Part shown: piece by piece, positions 2,548-52,756 of the stretch
How the letters are laid out: every line of letters begins with the position of its first letter
Position numbering within the stretch: the first letter of the stretch is position 1
From: an uncultured Verrucomicrobia subdivision 3 bacterium
GTDB taxonomy: Bacteria > Verrucomicrobiota > Verrucomicrobiia > Limisphaerales > UBA11358
Direction of reading: 5' to 3'
Assembly (NCBI GenBank): GCA_903850425.1
Contig: CAINLR010000106.1
Coordinates: forward strand, 1-64,000
DNA length: 64,000 nucleotides
The notes under the pieces: model-generated
What the model was told of the DNA's origin: nothing
The model's input: the letters and a program-made list of their open reading frames with translations, nothing else
Databases searched by the model: none
Program-made: the position numbers and the translations under genes

Positions 2548-5500
2548 GTTTGTGCTTCGGTTGCCGCCGGGCGCAACCCGCGCCACGCGTGCGTCCAGTC
2601 ATCCAGGCGGCACGCCGCGCGATAATCGCAATAGTCACACGGCTTTTCCGCGCCCTTACGATATGGGTCAACCGCCGCCGCGCCGGAAAAAATCTTCCCG
2701 CCCAACTGGCGCAACTGGTTTTCGACACCCGCCACCAAGGCCACAAAGTTTTCGGGCGGCAACGCCTCTGCGGAATTGGACGGCAAACCGCCGCCTTTGT
2801 TCAAACGGAAGTTGAACTGGTCGCCTTTGCTCACCTCCGCGCGCCGGTCAAACTTCCGCAACTCGCCCGCATCGAAGCGTCCGTTGTGACGATACGCGAG
2901 TTTCTTTGCCTCGTGGTCGCCCAGAACTTCCGCGCGCGTGCCGCCGCTCTTGAAATCGCCGCGCAGGTTGACGTAGAAGGCTCCGGCGGGAATGATTTTC
3001 TCCGCGCCGAAAAATCCCCGCGGGTCTTTCCATTGGCGCAACGCCCCGAGATACGCGAGCAACTGCAACTGCACGCCGTTTTCCACCAGCAACGCATCCA
3101 GTTTCTTGCCGCCGGATTTGTAATCGGTCACCACGGCGAGGGCCGTGCCGCTGGCCGCATCGCGCCACAAATCCACGCGGTCAATCCGACCTTGCAACGC
3201 GAGCTTGTGGCCACCGCCCAAATCAAATTCCCACGCGGGCGCGCGGTCGTCCGGGCCACCAAAACCGAGTTCCGCCGCCGCCGGATCAAAGTCATATTGC
3301 CCGCGCATCCAGCCGACGATGACCTCCACAAAATCCTGCAACGACGCCCCCAGCGCCTGCGCGGCGAAAACGGTTTCCGCCGAATCGCGAAACAATCCAT
3401 TGCGGAAATGCGCCGTCTGCGCGGCCGCGATCTGGCCAATGCGGACGCGCGCCGCCCGCGGTTCCAAGTCGCGCCAGCGTTGGCCTTCCGCTTGCAACTG
3501 TTCGTGAAAAACCTTCAAGACATCGTGCTGGAAATTGCCGCGTTCGCGCGCATCCAGTTCAAAAACCTTCCGCTCATTCGCGCGCAGGCCGGAGCGGACA
3601 AAAAACTTGAACGGACACTGCGCGAATTCCTCCAACCGGCTGACGGACGAGCGCAAGACCGGGCCGTAGAGCCGCTCCGCCAGCGCCGGCGAAAGGTTTT
3701 CCTTTTCATTTGGCTCGCGCAAAGCGGCGAGTTTTTCCGCCAGCAATTTGAGCGCGGGGAGTGCGAGCAGTTGGTCCAAGCTGAAAGAATCGCCCTCACC
3801 CTGACCCTCTCCCATCCGGTGGGAGAGGGAACAGCCGTTGTCAACTTCCAGCAATTTGGATAGCTGTCCGGCAGAAGAGCGATATGAATTTCCATCGAGA
3901 CGGGGAGCCTTTCCCCCTCTCCCATCGGATGGGAGAGGGCCGGGGTGAGGGCCATTCCATTGGACCAACAGCGGCACCAATTCGCTGGCGTGCTCAGCGT
4001 TGCGCCAGTCCAAGGCCGCCGAACCTTCTTCAACTTCAAGCTGCGGGAACATCCGTTGCAGTTGAGCGATAAAGGGCGATGGGTTCAGCGTTTTCCCCTC
4101 GGCAGTTTGGCGCGCGAACGTCAGCGCCAGTTTTTCATTCGCGCGTGTGCAGGCGATGTAGCCGAGATAACGCTCGCGGGAAACCTGGTCAAACCGGCTG
4201 GTGCCGAGGGCGACATTTTGCCGCTCCAATTCATCGCGGTCGGCGGGCGTCAAGATCACCGGCGCGGCGGGCGCGGCGGGAAACACGGATTCGTTCACGC
4301 CGAGCAGCAGCGCGAATTTCAGGCTGGGGTTGCGCGCCCGGTCAATCGCCCCGACCAGCACTTCGTCCAATGCCGGTGGGATCACGCCGACGGTCAGGCT
4401 GGCCAGGCCGGCTTCGAGGATCGGCAGCCAGTCACGCAGCGGCAGCGGCTCGCGCGGAAACGCCAGCGCGAGATTTTCCAGCCAGGAATTCATCTGCTCC
4501 CAGACGGTCGCATGGATGGCCGATGACCGCTGGCCGTTGGCCGATTCCTCGTCATCGTGGGTCCAGCGTGCCAGTGTCGGCTCGACTTCCAAGTCCCGCC
4601 AAAGTCGCCGCAGGATTTCGGCCAACTGCGCGCCGGTTGGCTTGGAATTCAGCTTTGTCAGTTGGGCGTGGCAACTTTCAAACGGCGGGAAAATGATCGC
4701 GCGCAGGCGTTCGCAGTTTTCCTCCGGCAGCGGCGCGCGCCATTGCTGGCCGCGCCAGCCGAATTCCAGCGCGGCATTTTCCAGCCGGTCAATCTCGGTT
4801 TCGACCACCGGCGAGAAGCCGGCCTTGAGCGCGGCAAACCAATCATCGTTTTGCCAGTCAAACGCGACCGTGCGGAGCGCGTTGCGCGTGAGTTCCGCGA
4901 GCGGGTGATGCGCCACGCTCTCGCGGCGGTCGAGAAAAAAAGGAATGCCATAGCGCCGAAAAGCGCGCGCGAGCGGTTGGTGATACCCGTCTAACTGGCG
5001 GACCAGCACCGCGCAGTCGCGGAAACGGTTGCCACTGCCGGCGCGGACGAATTTCAAAACCGCGCGCGCGGCGAACATGGCCTCGGCTTCGGGATTCGCG
5101 CAGGCGGTCGCGGTGATTTGCGATTGCACATTCGAGCTTTCAAATGCCGACGCGACCGGCAGCGACCAGCCGGCCTCCAGTTCACCCAACACCGAGTCTT
5201 CCGCGAAACGATTTTTGCCCGGCACGCGCCGGAGGATTTCCGTTTTCACTTCGCAGTCCGGCAGATTGGCAATTTGCGTGCGACACTGCTGGAACGTTTT
5301 GCCGATGGCCGACCAGATGGAGAGCCACGAGACGGCGGGGGTGGGTTCGGTTTCCAGGCAGAACGCGAGGGTGGCCTGTTCGCACCGGGGTAGAACGGCG
5401 GCGAGCAAGGCGAGTTCCTGCGGCGTCATCTCGGCAAAACCATCCAGCCAAAGTCCTTCAATTCTTAAATTCGCATTATTGATGCTGCCTTGGCGGTGCA

Positions 5501-33530: not shown

Positions 33531-34432
33531 CCGAGTTTCTGCAGCAAATCATCAATGGTCTGGCGTTCGGCTCCATCCTCGCGCTGATCGCCATCGGCTA
33601 CACGATGGTCTATGGCATCCTGCGGTTCATCAATTTTGCCCACGGCGACATCTTCATGCTCGGCGCGTTCGCCGGATTTTATCTTGCGCCGAAAATCGCT
33701 TCCGTTCTGCCGCTGCCTTCGATCGCCGGCGCGCTCGTGGTCATGGTGGTTTCCATGGCGGTGTGCGCCGCCCTCGGCGTTTTGATCGAACGGCTCGCGT
33801 ATCGTCCGTTGCGCAAGCGTCCCAAACTCACCGTGCTCATCACGGCCATCGGCGTCTCGCTTTTTCTCGAATACGCCGGTCAGTTCTTCTTTGGTGCCGC
33901 ACCCAAAAAATTTCCTGAAATCCTCCCCAGCTTCTCCGTCACGCACATCGGCAGCCTGAGTTTCAACAGCAACCAGATCGTCGTGATCGCCGTCACCTTG
34001 ATTCTGTTGTTCGCGCTACGGTTGATCGTGTTGAAAACCAAAATCGGCACCGCCATGCGCGCCGTGTCCTTCAATCCCGAGGCCGCCGCGCTCATGGGCG
34101 TGAACACCGATGTGGTCATCAGCTTCACTTTCGCGCTTGGCTCCGCGCTCGCGGCGGCCGCCGGGATTTTATGGTCCATCAATTATCCCTCCATTGATCC
34201 GCTCATGGGCATTTTGCCTGGACTCAAGGCGTTCGTCGCGGCGGTGCTCGGCGGCATCGGCAACCTGCCCGGCGCGGCGCTTGGTGGCGTCATCATCGGC
34301 GTCACCGAAACGCTTGTGTCCGGCTACATTTCCTCGACCTACCGCGACGCCATTGCGTTCGCGGTGTTGATATTGATCCTGCTGGTAAAACCATCGGGCC
34401 TGCTCGGCAAGAAGGAAATCGAGAAGGTATGA
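33527..34432 (+). CDS. livH: Branched-chain amino acid ABC transporter permease LivH
   Basis: A 301-residue permease with about eight membrane helices. LQQIINGLAFGSILALIAIG at the N-terminus and RFINFAHGDIFMLGAFAGFY are hallmarks, and GLKAFVAAVLGGIGNLPGAA near residue 230 is the coupling-loop region. The GTG at 33527 overlaps the livK stop by 4 bases and its own stop overlaps livM, so translation is chained. Confidence 0.93.
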   Translation: MTEFLQQIINGLAFGSILALIAIGYTMVYGILRFINFAHGDIFMLGAFAGFYLAPKIASVLPLPSIAGALVVMVVSMAVCAALGVLIERLAYRPLRKRPKLTVLITAIGVSLFLEYAGQFFFGAAPKKFPEILPSFSVTHIGSLSFNSNQIVVIAVTLILLFALRLIVLKTKIGTAMRAVSFNPEAAALMGVNTDVVISFTFALGSALAAAAGILWSINYPSIDPLMGILPGLKAFVAAVLGGIGNLPGAALGGVIIGVTETLVSGYISSTYRDAIAFAVLILILLVKPSGLLGKKEIEKV

Positions 34433-35403
34433 ATTTCCGCCACGCCAAAACTTTTTTGCTCGGTGCGATTGCGCTGGGATTTTTGGCGTCGCTCGCGGCG
34501 AATCAAATAAATCCCTACTGGCTCTTCATTTTTTACGACATCGGCATTGGCATTGTCATGGCCGTCAGTCTAAATCTCATCAACGGTTACACCGGCCAAT
34601 TCTCCTTGGGTCACGCGGGTTTCATGGCGGTCGGTGCCTACACTTCGGCGGTCATCACCAATCAATTTGGCGAACTCAATTTCTTTGTGGCGAACGGAAT
34701 TTTTGCCGTCTCGCTCTATGCGGGCGGACTCGCGGCGGCGCTCGCCGGATTACTGGTCGGCATTCCCACACTGCGGCTGCGCGGCGATTACCTGGCCATC
34801 GTCACGCTGGGCTTCGGCGAAATCATCCGGGTCATTCTGCAAAACATGGAGAAGGTGGGCGGCGCGCGCGGCTTGAGCGTCAACCACGGCTACACGAATC
34901 TGTTTTGGACCTTCGGCCTCGCGGCGGTGACGGTTTACGTCGTCGCGTCGCTCGTCAATTCCACTTACGGCCGCGGCTTCATCGCTGTTCATGACGACGA
35001 AGTGGCGGCCGAAGCGATGGGCATCAACACCACGAAATACAAAGTCACCGCGTTTGTCGTTGGCTCGTTCTTCGCCGGCATCGCCGGTGGCCTTTACGCG
35101 CATTCAAAACAATTTCTCACGCCCGGCGGCTTCGGTTTCATGCAATCCATCACCTTCGTGGTGATGGTGATCCTTGGCGGCATGGGCAACAGCGTCGGCG
35201 TCATCTTGGCGGCGATTTTGCTGACGCTGCTGCCGGAAGGTTTGCGGATGCTGTCCGGCATCGAACACCTGCCCGGCTTCAGCGCCGAACGCCCGCTCGG
35301 CTGGATTGGCGACACGCGGATGATCATCTATTCGCTGCTGCTCATCGCGCTGATGCTCACAAGACCGCAAGGCCTCTTTTCCTTCCGAAGGAAAAGAAAT
35401 TAA
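34429..35403 (+). CDS. livM: Branched-chain amino acid ABC transporter permease LivM
   Basis: A 324-residue permease. ISLNLINGYTGQFSLGHAGF-type sequence near residue 45, LRLRGDYLAIVTLGFGEIIR, and the ATP-ase contact motif GRGFIAVHDDEVAAEAMGIN are present. The ATG overlaps the livH stop (ATGA). The stop TAA is the first copy of an AT-rich repeat, after which a foreign-looking four-helix-bundle gene separates livM from livG. Confidence 0.93.
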   Translation: MNFRHAKTFLLGAIALGFLASLAANQINPYWLFIFYDIGIGIVMAVSLNLINGYTGQFSLGHAGFMAVGAYTSAVITNQFGELNFFVANGIFAVSLYAGGLAAALAGLLVGIPTLRLRGDYLAIVTLGFGEIIRVILQNMEKVGGARGLSVNHGYTNLFWTFGLAAVTVYVVASLVNSTYGRGFIAVHDDEVAAEAMGINTTKYKVTAFVVGSFFAGIAGGLYAHSKQFLTPGGFGFMQSITFVVMVILGGMGNSVGVILAAILLTLLPEGLRMLSGIEHLPGFSAERPLGWIGDTRMIIYSLLLIALMLTRPQGLFSFRRKRN

Positions 35404-35849
35404 AAATGAAAAATTAAAAATGAAAAAAGCGGATTCTCAGCCGGAAAATTACATTGGCAAGCCACGCGACATTGTTGAACGCTCTTTTGAATTTGCCGTC
35501 CGCATCATCCAGCTTTGCGGAAAAATGGATGAACGTCCGGGCGTTGGCCGGGTGATGATGAGCCAGATTCTTCGCGCCGGAACGAGTGTTCCGGCAAATG
35601 TCGAAGAAGCGCAAGCCGCGCAAAGCAAGGCTGATTTTGTCAGCAAAATGTCCATCGCCCTGAAAGAAGCGCGCGAAACGCATCTACGCTTACGCCTGCT
35701 GGCGACTGCCAAACTTTTTCCTGATAAACAACTGCAACCGCTGATTGATGAAGCCGATGAAATTCGCCGCGTGATTGGCGCAATCATTGTTTCCAGCAAG
35801 CGTGGCGGAGAATCCTGATTTTTTAATTTTACATTTTTAATTTTTAATT
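35399..35849. repeat. AT-rich inverted-repeat cassette carrying the four-helix-bundle gene
   Basis: The left end at about 35399-35427 is rich in TTAAAAATGAAAAA. The right end at 35818-35849 reads TAATTTTACATTTTTAATTT then TTAATTC and is close to its reverse complement. Together they bracket the 35420-35818 gene inside the liv operon. The 27-base right end recurs exactly at the end of a nearly empty version at 36611-36707. Confidence 0.72.
35420..35818 (+). CDS. Four-helix-bundle protein (S23/IVP family)
   Basis: A 132-residue helical protein. IVERSFEFAVRIIQLCGKM, MSQILRAGTSVPANVEEAQA, SKADFVSKMSIALKEARETH and LRLLATAKLFPD match the four-helix-bundle family first known from 23S rRNA intervening sequences and related to Avd of diversity-generating retroelements. 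It lies between livM and livG with AT-rich inverted repeats on both sides, so it is an insertion rather than part of the transporter. No catalytic motif is visible; relatives form pentamers that bind nucleic acid. It has no obvious Shine-Dalgarno and is in the operon's direction. Confidence 0.88.
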   Translation: MKKADSQPENYIGKPRDIVERSFEFAVRIIQLCGKMDERPGVGRVMMSQILRAGTSVPANVEEAQAAQSKADFVSKMSIALKEARETHLRLRLLATAKLFPDKQLQPLIDEADEIRRVIGAIIVSSKRGGES

Positions 35850-35850
35850 C

Positions 35851-36612
35851 ATGCCTTCCCTGCTCCAACTCGACCAAACCACCATCCGCTTCGGCGGACT
35901 TACGGCGGTGTCGGAACTGGATTTGCAGATCGGCCGCAACGAACTGGTTGGACTCATCGGCCCAAACGGCGCGGGCAAAACCACTGCGTTTAATCTTATC
36001 ACTGGCGTCTATCAACCGACCAGTGGCGAGGTTGCTTTTGATGGCAAATCCATCGTGGGCAGCAAACCGTATCACATCACTGCGCGCGGCATTGCGCGGA
36101 CGTTTCAGAACATCCGGCTGTTTCCGTCGCTCACGGTTTTCGATAATGTCCGCGCGGTGTTTCATCTGCATCTGCGCGGCGACGTGCGCCACGCGCTGTG
36201 GCGCGGCAAGGGTTATCACGCCGAAGAAAAATCCATTGCCGACCGCGTCATGGAGTTGCTGGAAATTTTTCAGCTCGGCAAATTCCGCGACGAAGCGGCG
36301 AAGAGCTTGAGCTACGGCGACCAGCGGCGCCTGGAAATCGTGCGTGCGCTGGCGGCGAAACCAAAATTGCTTTTGCTCGACGAACCCGCCGCCGGCATGA
36401 ACGCCACCGAGAAGGTCGAGCTCACGCGGCTCATCCAGTTCATCAAGGACAAATTTCAGATTTCCATCCTGCTGGTCGAGCATGATATGAAAGTGGTGAT
36501 GGGCATCTGCGAACGCATTGTGGTTTTGGATTACGGCATTAAAATCGCCGAAGGCAAACCGGAAGAAGTGCGCGCGAACCCGAAAGTCATTGCGGCGTAT
36601 CTGGGGGAATGA
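35851..36612 (+). CDS. livG: Branched-chain amino acid ABC transporter ATP-binding protein LivG
   Basis: A 253-residue ATPase: Walker A GLIGPNGAGKTTAFNLITG near residue 36, Q-loop ARTFQNIRLFPSLTVFDN, signature LSYGDQRRLEIVRAL, Walker B LLLLDEPAAGMN and switch His in LLVEHDMKVVMGICERIVVL. The LivG-specific C-terminal EGKPEEVRANPKVIAAYLGE is intact. Only the inserted cassette separates it from livM. The signature is slightly altered (SYGDQ for SGGEQ), which is usual in LivG. Confidence 0.94.
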   Translation: MPSLLQLDQTTIRFGGLTAVSELDLQIGRNELVGLIGPNGAGKTTAFNLITGVYQPTSGEVAFDGKSIVGSKPYHITARGIARTFQNIRLFPSLTVFDNVRAVFHLHLRGDVRHALWRGKGYHAEEKSIADRVMELLEIFQLGKFRDEAAKSLSYGDQRRLEIVRALAAKPKLLLLDEPAAGMNATEKVELTRLIQFIKDKFQISILLVEHDMKVVMGICERIVVLDYGIKIAEGKPEEVRANPKVIAAYLGE

Positions 36613-36707
36613 TTAAAAATACAAAATTACAAATGAAAAAACAACGGATCACGGCCCATGCGAACGGCCGTCGGCATTTTTAATTTTACATTTTTAATTT
36701 TTAATTG
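36611..36707. repeat. Nearly empty AT-rich inverted-repeat element between livG and livF
   Basis: Left end ATTAAAAATACAAAATTACA (from 36612) and right end TAATTTTACATTTTTAATTT (~36681-36700) bracket only about 32 bases (AACGGATCACGGCCCATGCG onward). The right end matches the S23 cassette's right end for 27 bases. It starts at the livG stop and ends 6 bases before livF. Confidence 0.7.
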
Positions 36708-36712
36708 AACCG

Positions 36713-37420
36713 ATGCTGGAAATAAAGAATCTGACGGTCAGCTACGGCGCGATTTCCGCGCTGCACGGCATCACTTTGTCGGTGCAGTCCGGCAGCATCG
36801 TCACGCTGATCGGCAGCAATGGCGCGGGTAAAACCACGACCTTGAAAACGGTTTCTGGCCTGCTCAAGCCGAAGTCCGGCGAGATAAATTACGAGGGCAA
36901 GAACATCGCCGGCTTGCCGCCGCATGAAATCGTGGCGCGCGGCTTATCGCATGTTCCCGAAGGCCGGATGATTTTTGCGAACCTGACCGTGCTGGAAAAT
37001 TTGCAGATGGGAGCCTATCTGGTGCGCGACAACAAGATCGTCCGGCGGGAACTGGAATTTGTCTTCGCCACGTTTCCGCGTTTGAAAGAACGCGAGCAGC
37101 AAATCGCCGGAACCTTGAGCGGCGGCGAACAACAGATGCTGGCGATTGGCCGCGCACTGATGAGCCAGCCGAAATTCCTGATGTTGGACGAACCCTCGCT
37201 CGGCCTCGCGCCACTGCTGGTCAAATCGATTTTTGAAAAGATCGTGGAGATCAACCGCGAGCGCGGCTTGACGATTCTGCTGGTGGAACAAAACGCCAAC
37301 CGCGCGCTGGAAATTTCCAGTTTCGGCTTTGTTTTGGAGACGGGCAAAATCACTTTGCAGGGCGACTCGGTGGCGCTGCGTCAAAACCCGCAGGTGAAGA
37401 GTGCTTATCTCGGAGGATGA
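36713..37420 (+). CDS. livF: Branched-chain amino acid ABC transporter ATP-binding protein LivF
   Basis: A 235-residue ATPase: Walker A TLIGSNGAGKTTTLKTVSG, signature TLSGGEQQMLAIGRALMS, Walker B LMLDEPSLGLAPLLV, and LLVEQNANRALEISSFGFVL. Fifth transport gene of the operon. The ATG has no Shine-Dalgarno because the preceding bases belong to the AT-rich repeat. Its last codons contain the GGAGG used by the next gene. Confidence 0.94.
   Translation: MLEIKNLTVSYGAISALHGITLSVQSGSIVTLIGSNGAGKTTTLKTVSGLLKPKSGEINYEGKNIAGLPPHEIVARGLSHVPEGRMIFANLTVLENLQMGAYLVRDNKIVRRELEFVFATFPRLKEREQQIAGTLSGGEQQMLAIGRALMSQPKFLMLDEPSLGLAPLLVKSIFEKIVEINRERGLTILLVEQNANRALEISSFGFVLETGKITLQGDSVALRQNPQVKSAYLGG
37412..37416 (+). 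promoter_or_regulatory. Strong Shine-Dalgarno for the threonine aldolase
   Basis: GGAGG lies 7 bases before the ATG at 37424 and inside the final livF codons (GGA GGA TGA), so the aldolase is probably translated from the liv transcript. Confidence 0.75.
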
Positions 37421-48025: not shown

Positions 48026-49360
48026 ATGAAAATGCAGTTCAAAGAAATCACTGGTTCCATCGTCGCGCCCCAAGGCTTTCTCGCCAGCGGCGTTTTTTGC
48101 GACATCAAAAAACTCGGCACGGGCAAAGGTTCCAACAAGGGTCCGAAGCGCGATCTCGCGCTCATCGTCTCCGAGACGCCGGCGACCGTTGCGGGCATGT
48201 TCACGACCAACCAAGTCTGCGCCGCGCCGGTGAAAGTGTGCGTCGAGCGGATGAAAAAGCGCCTGGCCCAAGTCGTGGTCGTTAATTCCGGCAATGCCAA
48301 CGCCTGCACCGGCCAACAGGGCATGGCCGATGCGCGGGAAATGGTTTCGTTCACCGAACGCACCTTGGCATTGTCGGCGGGGCGCGCGTTGGTTGGTTCA
48401 ACCGGACGCATTGGCGTGACGATGCCGATGGACAATATCCGCGCCGGCATTCTCGCAGCGGCGATGGAATTGGGCGGCACGCCAACGCACGCCGACCAGG
48501 CGGCCGAGGCGATCATGACGAGCGATTCGCGTTCGAAGCAGATCGCGATTGCATTCAAGCTCGGCGGCCAGACGGTGCGTATCGGCGGCATCTGCAAAGG
48601 CGCGGGGATGATCCAGCCCGGCATGAGTGCGACCGGCGCACGTCCCGCCGCGCTGCCGCAGGGTGGATTGCACGCGACGATGCTGTGCTTCATCACGACC
48701 GATGCGGCGATTGACGCAGCGGTGTTGCAAGCCGCGCTGAACGAAGCTGTCGCACACAGCTTCAATCGCATCACCGTGGACGGCGACATGAGCACGAACG
48801 ACACGGTGCTCGTGCTGGCGAACGGACTCGCTGGCAATGAAAAATTAAAAAATAAAAATTCAAAACTAAAAACTTTTCAAGCCGCCTTGAATCACGTCTG
48901 CCTTGAACTCGCCAAGAAAATTGTGCGCGATGGCGAAGGCGTTCACCGGGTCGTAACCGTGCGGGTGACTGGTGCGAGGACGATTCAGGATGCCGATGCC
49001 GCCGCGCGCGCGGTGGCGAACAGCGCGCTGGTGAAAACGAGCTGGCACGGCGGCGACCCGAACTGGGGCCGCATTATTGACGCCCTTGGCTACTCGCCCG
49101 CAACCGTGATGGAGGAGAAAATTGACATCGGCTACGCCGCGAATGGTTCGAAGAAAATTCTCTGGAGCCTCAAGCGTGGTCAACCGACGAAGGCGACGTT
49201 CAAGGAATTGTGCGCCGCCGTCGCGCCGAAAGAATTTGAACTGCACATCAACCTGAATCTCGGCCAGGCGGACGCCGTGATGTATGCCGCTGATTTGACC
49301 GAAGCCTACGTGGACTACAACAAAGGCGACGTGACCGACCCGACCACACTTGGCGGTTGA
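48026..49360 (+). CDS. argJ: Bifunctional glutamate N-acetyltransferase / ornithine acetyltransferase
   Basis: Transfers acetyl from N-acetylornithine to glutamate. About 444 residues. The self-cleavage region HATMLCFITTDAAID near residue 214 keeps the nucleophilic Thr of ATML. Other landmarks are VVNSGNANACTGQQGMADAR, STGRIGVTMPMDNI, ICKGAGMIQPGMSATG and VKTSWHGGDPNWGRIIDALG. Starts at 48026 or 48032; the frame to 47990 runs through a repeat. An AT-rich stretch (48838-48868) encodes KLKNKNSKLK just before the helix FQAALNHVCLELAKKI, resembling the AT-rich repeat of the liv operon taken into the gene. Confidence 0.95.
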   Translation: MKMQFKEITGSIVAPQGFLASGVFCDIKKLGTGKGSNKGPKRDLALIVSETPATVAGMFTTNQVCAAPVKVCVERMKKRLAQVVVVNSGNANACTGQQGMADAREMVSFTERTLALSAGRALVGSTGRIGVTMPMDNIRAGILAAAMELGGTPTHADQAAEAIMTSDSRSKQIAIAFKLGGQTVRIGGICKGAGMIQPGMSATGARPAALPQGGLHATMLCFITTDAAIDAAVLQAALNEAVAHSFNRITVDGDMSTNDTVLVLANGLAGNEKLKNKNSKLKTFQAALNHVCLELAKKIVRDGEGVHRVVTVRVTGARTIQDADAAARAVANSALVKTSWHGGDPNWGRIIDALGYSPATVMEEKIDIGYAANGSKKILWSLKRGQPTKATFKELCAAVAPKEFELHINLNLGQADAVMYAADLTEAYVDYNKGDVTDPTTLGG

Positions 49361-52711: not shown

Positions 52712-52756
52712 AACGGGATTTACGATTTACGATTTACATTGGTCGCGCCAGTAAAA

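Follow-up and report, generated by a model that had tools for sequence, protein, structure and literature searches.

The stretch analysed here, 64,000 nucleotides (nt) from an uncultured Verrucomicrobia subdivision 3 bacterium (contig CAINLR010000106.1, positions 1 to 64,000; referred to below as the window), carries between livM and livG a gene for a four-helix-bundle protein of the S23/intervening-sequence protein (IVP) family, enclosed by two inverted arms of degenerate 7-nt words. Inverted heptamer arms around IVP genes are general, across many bacterial phyla, and from these sequence comparisons the arrangement points to a widespread, little-recognised kind of mobile DNA element. A preliminary description of the window had placed the gene between AT-rich inverted repeats that split livM from livG, and this is borne out: the 132-amino-acid protein matches PF05635 (profile score 75.4 bits, cut-off 33.8) and TIGR02436 (profile score 91.5 bits, cut-off 24), and the arms lie at 35397-35427 and 35820-35849. 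The left arm overlaps the stop codon of livM (35401-35403) and contains the start codon of the IVP gene (35420), and a single base separates the right arm from the IVP stop codon on one side and from the livG start codon on the other. The open reading frame (ORF) of this copy thus sits within terminal inverted repeats, outside rRNA. The source genome, a 6.9-Mb draft, holds nine PF05635 genes including the window copy, and the closest named relatives of the window IVP come from metagenome-assembled genomes of Verrucomicrobia subdivision 3 / Limisphaerales. The liv IVP protein is under purifying selection: the ratio of nonsynonymous to synonymous substitution rates (dN/dS) was 0.09-0.15 when the window gene was compared with five IVP genes (71-87% identical to it in protein) from the liv operons of relatives, and dN/dS among the liv IVP genes was 0.04-0.17 in 13 of 15 pairs and undefined in two.

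In what follows, G numbers denote genomes (G000 is the source genome) and L numbers the loci analysed. By eye, most of the eight other PF05635 genes of the source genome are surrounded by a different 7-nt word, the exceptions being L017, without arms, and L015, with a mixed period. In a first set of 78 PF05635 loci (9 from the source genome, 29 from relatives and 40 named), an identity run at lag 7 with a score of at least 10 was found in 52.6% of the 152 IVP flanks compared to 1.9% of the 1300 control windows taken at these loci, and lags 4-6 and 8-13 gave 0-2% in the IVP flanks, which is near the control level. Adding 40 further genes of relatives (part of those listed) and three genes of liv loci brought the set to 121 loci, in which one locus appears twice, as L062 and as L103; both flanks are present for 118. 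Among these 118 loci a heptamer array was found on the left at 71, on the right at 59, on both sides at 41 and on at least one side at 89, compared to 29 of 1051 single control windows. The two flanks of the same IVP gene, compared by ungapped scoring, were mutually inverted (score at least 12) at 88 of the 118 loci versus 21 of 600 cross-locus pairs. At the 56 loci with arrays (score at least 8) on both sides, the arrays matched with a score of at least 10 in inverted orientation in 49 cases and in direct orientation in 9, and cross pairs among the two-array loci gave an inverted match in 238 of 3080. The right array lies close to the IVP stop codon, at a median distance of +2 nt (67 arrays). 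Inverted flanks (score at least 12) were present in 40 of 60 named and plasmid loci, and a lag-7 or lag-8 array on a side in 50; when these 60 loci were tabulated, 15 of 17 rows contained at least one inverted-flank case and at least one array, and the Cloacimonadota and phage rows, with one locus each, had neither. The arms differ in sequence between elements, and what is conserved is period and layout. Since each element has arms of its own heptamer word, the idea that every four-helix-bundle gene carries the ends seen in the window is false for the sequence, and it is largely true for the pattern (7-nt period, about 31 nt). Arrays of period 8 instead of 7 were seen at L318, L319, L015 and L047.

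The layout of the arms is specific. Lengths were compared among 298 distinct arrays, drawn from all sequence fetched up to that point, a collection in which IVP loci are over-represented. They peaked at 30, 31 and 32 nt (32, 37 and 28 arrays, respectively), and smaller maxima were seen around 24-27 nt and at 37 nt; arrays of lag 6, 8 or 9 had no peak at 30-32. The 37 arrays of exactly 31 nt are composed of five near-constant triplets and four variable tetramers, with an interior lag-7 identity of 0.91-0.97 in the triplet phases and 0.77-0.85 in the other phases. The end positions carry a bias from how the arrays were cut, and one AAAGCGG word accounts for 7 of the 37 arrays. The relatives in the PDB, 2rld and 2gsc, have five chains per entry, and a family protein is reportedly pentameric, going by the title of a 2006 paper by Lin et al. 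that appears in reference lists. Five triplets and five subunits suggest that each subunit may take up one triplet of the arm. A coupling of the lengths of the two arms of one element was considered and rejected, as there was no correlation over 52 elements and the number of heptamers was equal in 20 of them; one close Nostoc set, with one heptamer less in both arms, is an exception.

Closely related IVPs tend to keep the same heptamer word, even at non-syntenic sites and in different phyla. For this comparison, which covered 93 loci with a word, two words were taken as the same when they differed by at most one change. Non-syntenic pairs with at least 60% amino acid identity had the same word in 56% of 110 cases, and those below 30% identity in 2% of 2568, with pair counts that are inflated by kinship, many of the close pairs belonging to one Clostridial group with mostly 91-99% identity and mostly different sites. 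Words found at unrelated places include AAAAGTG, in Prevotellaceae, Deltaproteobacteria and Saprospiraceae, and GAATGCG, shared by a Planctomycetota and an unassigned bacterium; GATGCTG, GGTCAGA and ATTTGAA likewise recur in different genomes.

Sites without the insert also exist. In a liv survey of 40 genomes, including the source genome, livG was found in 21, and the livM-livG junction could be assessed at 18 loci and the livG-livF junction at 20. An IVP gene was present between livM and livG in 2 of the 18 (G000 and G005); the other 16 junctions measure 9-67 nt, partly coding sequence beyond the BLAST match, and one of them has a one-sided TTTTTCC array. The junction of G016, gaaatTAAAAGTTCatg, is near to an empty form of the window site. 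Between livG and livF, an AATTAAA hairpin was found in three genomes (G000, G005 and G010), a TTTACGA hairpin in one (G004) and an IVP gene in two (G024, where the arms are AAAAGGC, and G021, where they are AATTAAA-like), 12 of the 20 junctions are merely 3-25 nt long, and two have a longer spacer of another kind. Among the named genomes, the livM-livG junction is loaded in L062 (the G005 locus) and L063, the livG-livF junction is loaded in L065, and L064 has an IVP gene at each of the two. At the livG-livF junction of L063 (about 4190-4283), an apparent 8-nt repeat (CAACAAAG) in inverted copies was seen by eye; as relatives have AATTAAA or TTTACGA hairpins at this junction, it is possibly an insertion hot spot. 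Loaded, hairpin-only and clean states are thus all found among relatives, and from the liv junctions that lack an IVP it follows that the gene is not ancestral in the operon, the possibility that would have spoken against the preliminary description.

Natural empty sites exist not only in the liv operon, but also between cas2 and cas1 and in a Nostoc methyltransferase gene. Two Nostoc plasmids have cas2 and cas1 side by side; in Nostoc TCL26-01 and Anabaena cylindrica an antisense IVP gene with heptamers parts the two. In three Nostoc plasmids a cytosine methyltransferase gene contains a CAATTCG-armed element; three relatives (L311, L312 and L313) have this gene intact, with a CAATTCG at the left junction. 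In p057_G each arm is one heptamer shorter than in the other two plasmids. Between metK and ahcY, an IVP gene was present in 7 of 30 loci (of 47 matches), with words that drift between species in all arms; spacer lengths at this junction depend on where the ahcY match starts.

Elements without a gene seem to accompany those with one. The preliminary description had reported that the right end recurs exactly for 27 bases between livG and livF, with about 32 bases between the ends of the smaller copy. The recurrence stands, its length being 30 nt (right arm of the IVP element from 35820, hairpin right arm 36677-36706), and the distance between the hairpin arms (36612-36634 and 36676-36706) came to 41 nt. 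The end is not single-copy either, as a 28-nt version allowing up to three mismatches occurs 15 times in the 6.9-Mb genome versus three times for a reversed control pattern. With this shared right arm, the inserts at livM-livG and livG-livF look like loaded and ORF-less forms of one kind of element, as had been proposed; a descent of the hairpin from a loaded copy stays putative. No remnant of an IVP gene was seen by eye in the hairpin loop, for which no sequence search was made.

In 464 kb of the source genome, lag 7 was dominant, with 36 arrays of a score of at least 11 compared to 0-16 at other lags and 21 at the lag-14 harmonic, and many of these lag-7 arrays are hairpins with short loops. 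When relatives were included (1.10 Mb, 68 arrays with a score of at least 10), 32 arrays formed hairpins, 32 were solitary and four had solely a distant partner, defined as 150-2500 nt away with no nearer one. These four are both arms of the window IVP, one L219 array that together with its partner spans a second IVP and one L218 array about 200 nt from a third. Cargo other than an IVP between distant inverted arms was not established in the 1.10 Mb, where the L218 pair is about 190 nt apart. Arrays numbered 51 in 711 kb of five IVP-bearing genomes versus three in 325 kb of four of the five relatives with no IVP among the matches listed, based on the first five contigs per relative and chosen stretches of G000, with runs of N excluded. 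In G000, the words of ORF-less arrays match those of resident IVPs in 28 of 34 cases, compared to 36% in random sets, none of 500 of which reached as high; as a general rule such a match was rejected, because it holds in G000 and fails in four relatives. Matches to the AAAGCGG pattern were commoner in five genomes with a close AAAGCGG-type IVP than in the 44 others (Mann-Whitney P = 0.0016; P = 0.007 after removal of the own arms).

Similar copies occur on plasmids, in defence loci and in rRNA. Of 25 records with plasmid or phage matches to PF05635, 12 were inspected by eye, and arms were seen in 11, the fecal phage record being the one without. Plasmid genes of the XCC0516 type, viewed in 8 of 23 records, had inverted periodic arms in seven, five with period 7 and two with period 8. 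One of this type, the copy of Azospirillum lipoferum AZO_p2 (L320), has heptamer arms and lies inside a 23S rRNA gene (RF02541, 1176 bits). The heptamer-armed element thus seems to include the classical rRNA intervening sequence among its forms. Most cyanobacterial IVP genes examined carry degenerate heptamer arms, and the IVP genes between cas or cmr genes at L296, L297 and L318 are bracketed by heptamer or octamer arms. IVP elements were also seen in plasmid operons of a defence type, namely in the orders cas10/IVP/cmr3 (L318), drmD/IVP/MmeI (L300) and helicase/IVP/N6-methylase (L302).

The mobile, repeat-associated life that the preliminary description considered plausible for this gene is strongly indicated by the inverted heptamer arms, the joint travel of word and protein, and the Nostoc copy in a gene body. 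On balance, we favour the interpretation that in this cassette we see one copy of a mobile element with a wide distribution, in which an IVP gene lies between inverted heptamer arms and the pentamer recognises its own word. Such an element would consist of the S23/IVP gene between two inverted arms of degenerate heptamers, typically five triplets and four tetramers in about 31 nt, and the livG-livF hairpin as well as many other hairpins in the genome would be its ORF-less members. The homopentameric IVP would bind the heptamer word of its own element, most simply with one triplet per subunit, and bring the ends of the element together, after which host enzymes would copy or insert the arm-bracketed segment into tolerant targets such as operon stop/start junctions, intergenic DNA, rRNA loops and sometimes the body of a gene. 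ORF-less hairpins would be mobilised in trans, and the process would operate at the level of DNA rather than RNA. A wider proposal, which we make tentatively and with some doubt, is that S23/IVP proteins may be pentameric readers of a (triplet-N4)x5 code that mobilise arm-bracketed DNA, including ORF-less hairpins, with every paralogue specific for a heptamer word of its own and each subunit taking one triplet. In that case, rRNA intervening sequences, the short tandemly repeated repetitive (STRR) heptamers of cyanobacteria, the GGGAATC pairs of Xanthomonas and the IVPs of cas loci would form one family, with ends conserved in period and length and not in sequence.

Several observations weigh against a mobile element of this kind. 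No movement was seen among the loci compared, and we know of no catalytic site in the IVP protein. By eye, no target-site duplication was seen at the liv, metK-ahcY and Nostoc junctions, for which the relatives are distant, and in the Nostoc methyltransferase gene 456-470 nt replace 332 nt, which is not a clean insertion. The lengths of left and right arms are uncorrelated (Spearman -0.19, n = 52), nearly half of the arrays in the 1.10 Mb (32 of 68) are solitary, and no arms were seen at L017, L305 and L323. In eleven Clostridial copies there is a hairpin on the left, and the flanking sequence fetched, which is short for some of them, contains no right arm to match it. In four relatives, the ORF-less words match resident IVP words, which are partly known there, in 1 of 20 arrays, and 9 of the 44 genomes lacking a close AAAGCGG-type IVP still hold 12-51 matches to that pattern. 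Finally, the word changes fast: at 50-60% identity it was the same in 9% of 237 non-syntenic pairs and in none of 10 syntenic pairs.

A different role for the arms would follow if the IVP were an auto-regulatory RNA-binding protein without mobility, whose pentamer wraps (triplet-N4)x5 in its own 5′ untranslated region and in other mRNAs, much as TRAP wraps NAG triplets; the arms would then be regulatory and spread by ordinary recombination. The five triplets per arm for a pentamer, the IVP start codon inside the left arm of the window and the ORF-less sites elsewhere in the genome fit such a protein. However, the inverted second arm by the stop codon (median +2 nt in 67 arrays), the positions inside the methyltransferase gene and 23S rRNA, and the co-travel of word and protein to unrelated loci are left unexplained, and we consider this unlikely. 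The arms could also be kept for pairing in the transcript, with RNase III cutting out the ORF as in an rRNA intervening sequence (IVS). This is how the Coxiella IVS is described in PMC4990558: its ends form a 28-bp stem, RNase III excises it, and GACAGAT heptamers precede S23p. The heptamer-armed Azospirillum copy in 23S rRNA agrees with such an element. Yet the sense-strand arm mismatches of 94 elements comprise 113 G.U, 122 A.C and 290 transversions, so selection for an RNA hairpin is unsupported, and the lack of a wobble excess favours a role at the DNA level; moreover, some copies are antisense to their operon (cas2/cas1), and an RNA element of this type is quite improbable.

That heptamer repeats simply arise by neutral slippage anywhere in intergenic DNA, with IVP genes landing in them by chance, could be argued from the 32 solitary arrays among the 68 sampled and from PMC4679880, which cites heptamers as the most frequent long simple repeats of many bacteria rich in repeats. 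We find this very hard to reconcile with an arm length that peaks at 31 nt rather than varying freely, arms of one gene that are mutually inverted, words that follow close protein relatives across phyla, and the few arrays in IVP-free relatives. There is next to no chance that the liv operon had the IVP gene ancestrally, as an accessory subunit. The likeness of the six liv-operon IVPs, the window copy included, and the purifying selection on them would suit a subunit, but its presence in merely 2 of 18 livM-livG and 2 of 20 livG-livF loci excludes it, and in the named genomes the IVP gene is found at either or both junctions.

The features of the window that bear on the proposed mobile element are listed in the table below.

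Features around the two inserts in the liv operon (positions in the window)
Feature	Position	Strand	Remarks
livM-type branched-chain permease	34429..35403	+	PF02653; upstream neighbour
Left arm	35397..35427	+	AAA-TTAA-AAA-TGAA-AAA-TTAA-AAA-TGAA-AAA; five triplets, four tetramers, 31 nt
S23/IVP four-helix-bundle gene, 132 amino acids	35420..35818	+	PF05635, TIGR02436
Right arm	35820..35849	+	Inverted copy of left arm
livG-type ABC ATPase of the branched-chain amino acid (BCA) type	35851..36612	+	PF00005, PF12399; between both elements
ORF-less hairpin between livG and livF	36612..36706		Arms 36612-36634 and 36676-36706; AATTAAA word class
livF-type ABC ATPase	36713..37420	+	PF00005; 3′ of hairpin

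The seven neighbouring proteins that were scanned belong to binding-protein, permease, ABC ATPase, lyase and DUF3999 families. Elsewhere in the window, positions 52717-52737 hold a short GATTTAC array of three units, whose inverted partner lies 9 nt further left, in the word class of the livG-livF hairpin of G004, and positions 48836-48874 hold an AT-rich heptamer array (AATGAAAAATTAAAAAATAAAAATTC...) with merely a weak partner within 1.2 kb. The eleven Clostridial loci (L074, L077, L079, L081, L083, L084, L086, L087, L089, L090 and L091), with IVPs of mostly 91-99% amino acid identity, share a block that runs from a heptamer-rich region about 120-340 nt upstream and stops at -13 to +29 nt relative to where the IVP gene ends. 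Beyond it the sequences differ, often with a new ORF within 30 nt, which gives a sharp right boundary near the stop codon; the downstream sequence is possibly exchangeable cargo.

Several known systems resemble the element in part. Miniature inverted-repeat transposable elements (MITEs) and the REPIN-RAYT system also comprise short ORF-less hairpins dispersed beside fewer copies with a protein gene, and the window element shares terminal inverted repeats with MITEs and insertion sequences; the IVP ends differ in being conserved in period and layout rather than sequence, and the protein is a pentameric four-helix bundle and no known transposase. The IVS of 23S rRNA with S23p has the same protein family, an ORF within terminal inverted repeats and, in Coxiella, a variable number of tandem GACAGAT heptamers upstream of S23p (Warrier et al. 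2016, PMC4990558), whereas the window copy lies between protein genes and its arms give no sign of RNA-stem selection; the parts of that article available to us do not present heptamers as a family-wide feature. The trnL intron P6b heptamers TDNGATT/NNTGAGT, with fixed and variable positions, a stem-loop and repeated class replacement (PMC4476775), are degenerate 7-nt words like those of the window, whose arms consist of tandem 7-nt units; a link to IVP genes is not made in the accessible parts of that source. In PMC4692102, the GGGAATC arrays of Xanthomonas and the GGGGA(T/C)T arrays of Nostoc, mostly intergenic, are studied as G-quadruplexes, and 70 and 75 convergent GGGAATC pairs are counted in two Xanthomonas genomes. 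They resemble the present arms as mostly intergenic inverted arrays, and the crystallised IVP XCC0516 is from X. campestris, but the available text says that they generally do not accompany mobile elements. TAACTGA heptamer repeats are treated in PMC4679880. Avd of diversity-generating retroelements is homologous to PF05635, according to the portion of PMC10053308 available; unlike in those retroelements, none of the seven proteins scanned around the window IVP contains a reverse transcriptase domain, more distant reverse transcriptases and template or variable repeats not having been sought. For cas loci, the accessible part of PMC3936711 lists 18 IVP genes, taken as an associated function. 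The genes at L296, L297 and L318 likewise lie between cas or cmr genes, but they are heptamer- or octamer-armed, and since cas2 and cas1 are adjacent without an IVP in two relatives, insertion is likelier. In the open-licence PubMed Central literature, as far as the available parts of PMC4990558, PMC4476775, PMC4692102, PMC4679880, PMC3936711, PMC10053308 and PMC11270868 go, we found no statement tying PF05635 in general to heptamer ends.

Proteins of the PF05635 family abound in these genomes; structures have been solved, and there is no agreement on what they do. The heptamer repeats of cyanobacteria, Xanthomonas and Beggiatoaceae and the rRNA intervening sequences have been separate old puzzles, and the link between IVP and heptamers gives them one testable hypothesis and names a candidate ligand for the pentamer. 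It also means that IVP genes inside operons, including cas operons, may be insertions rather than functional members.

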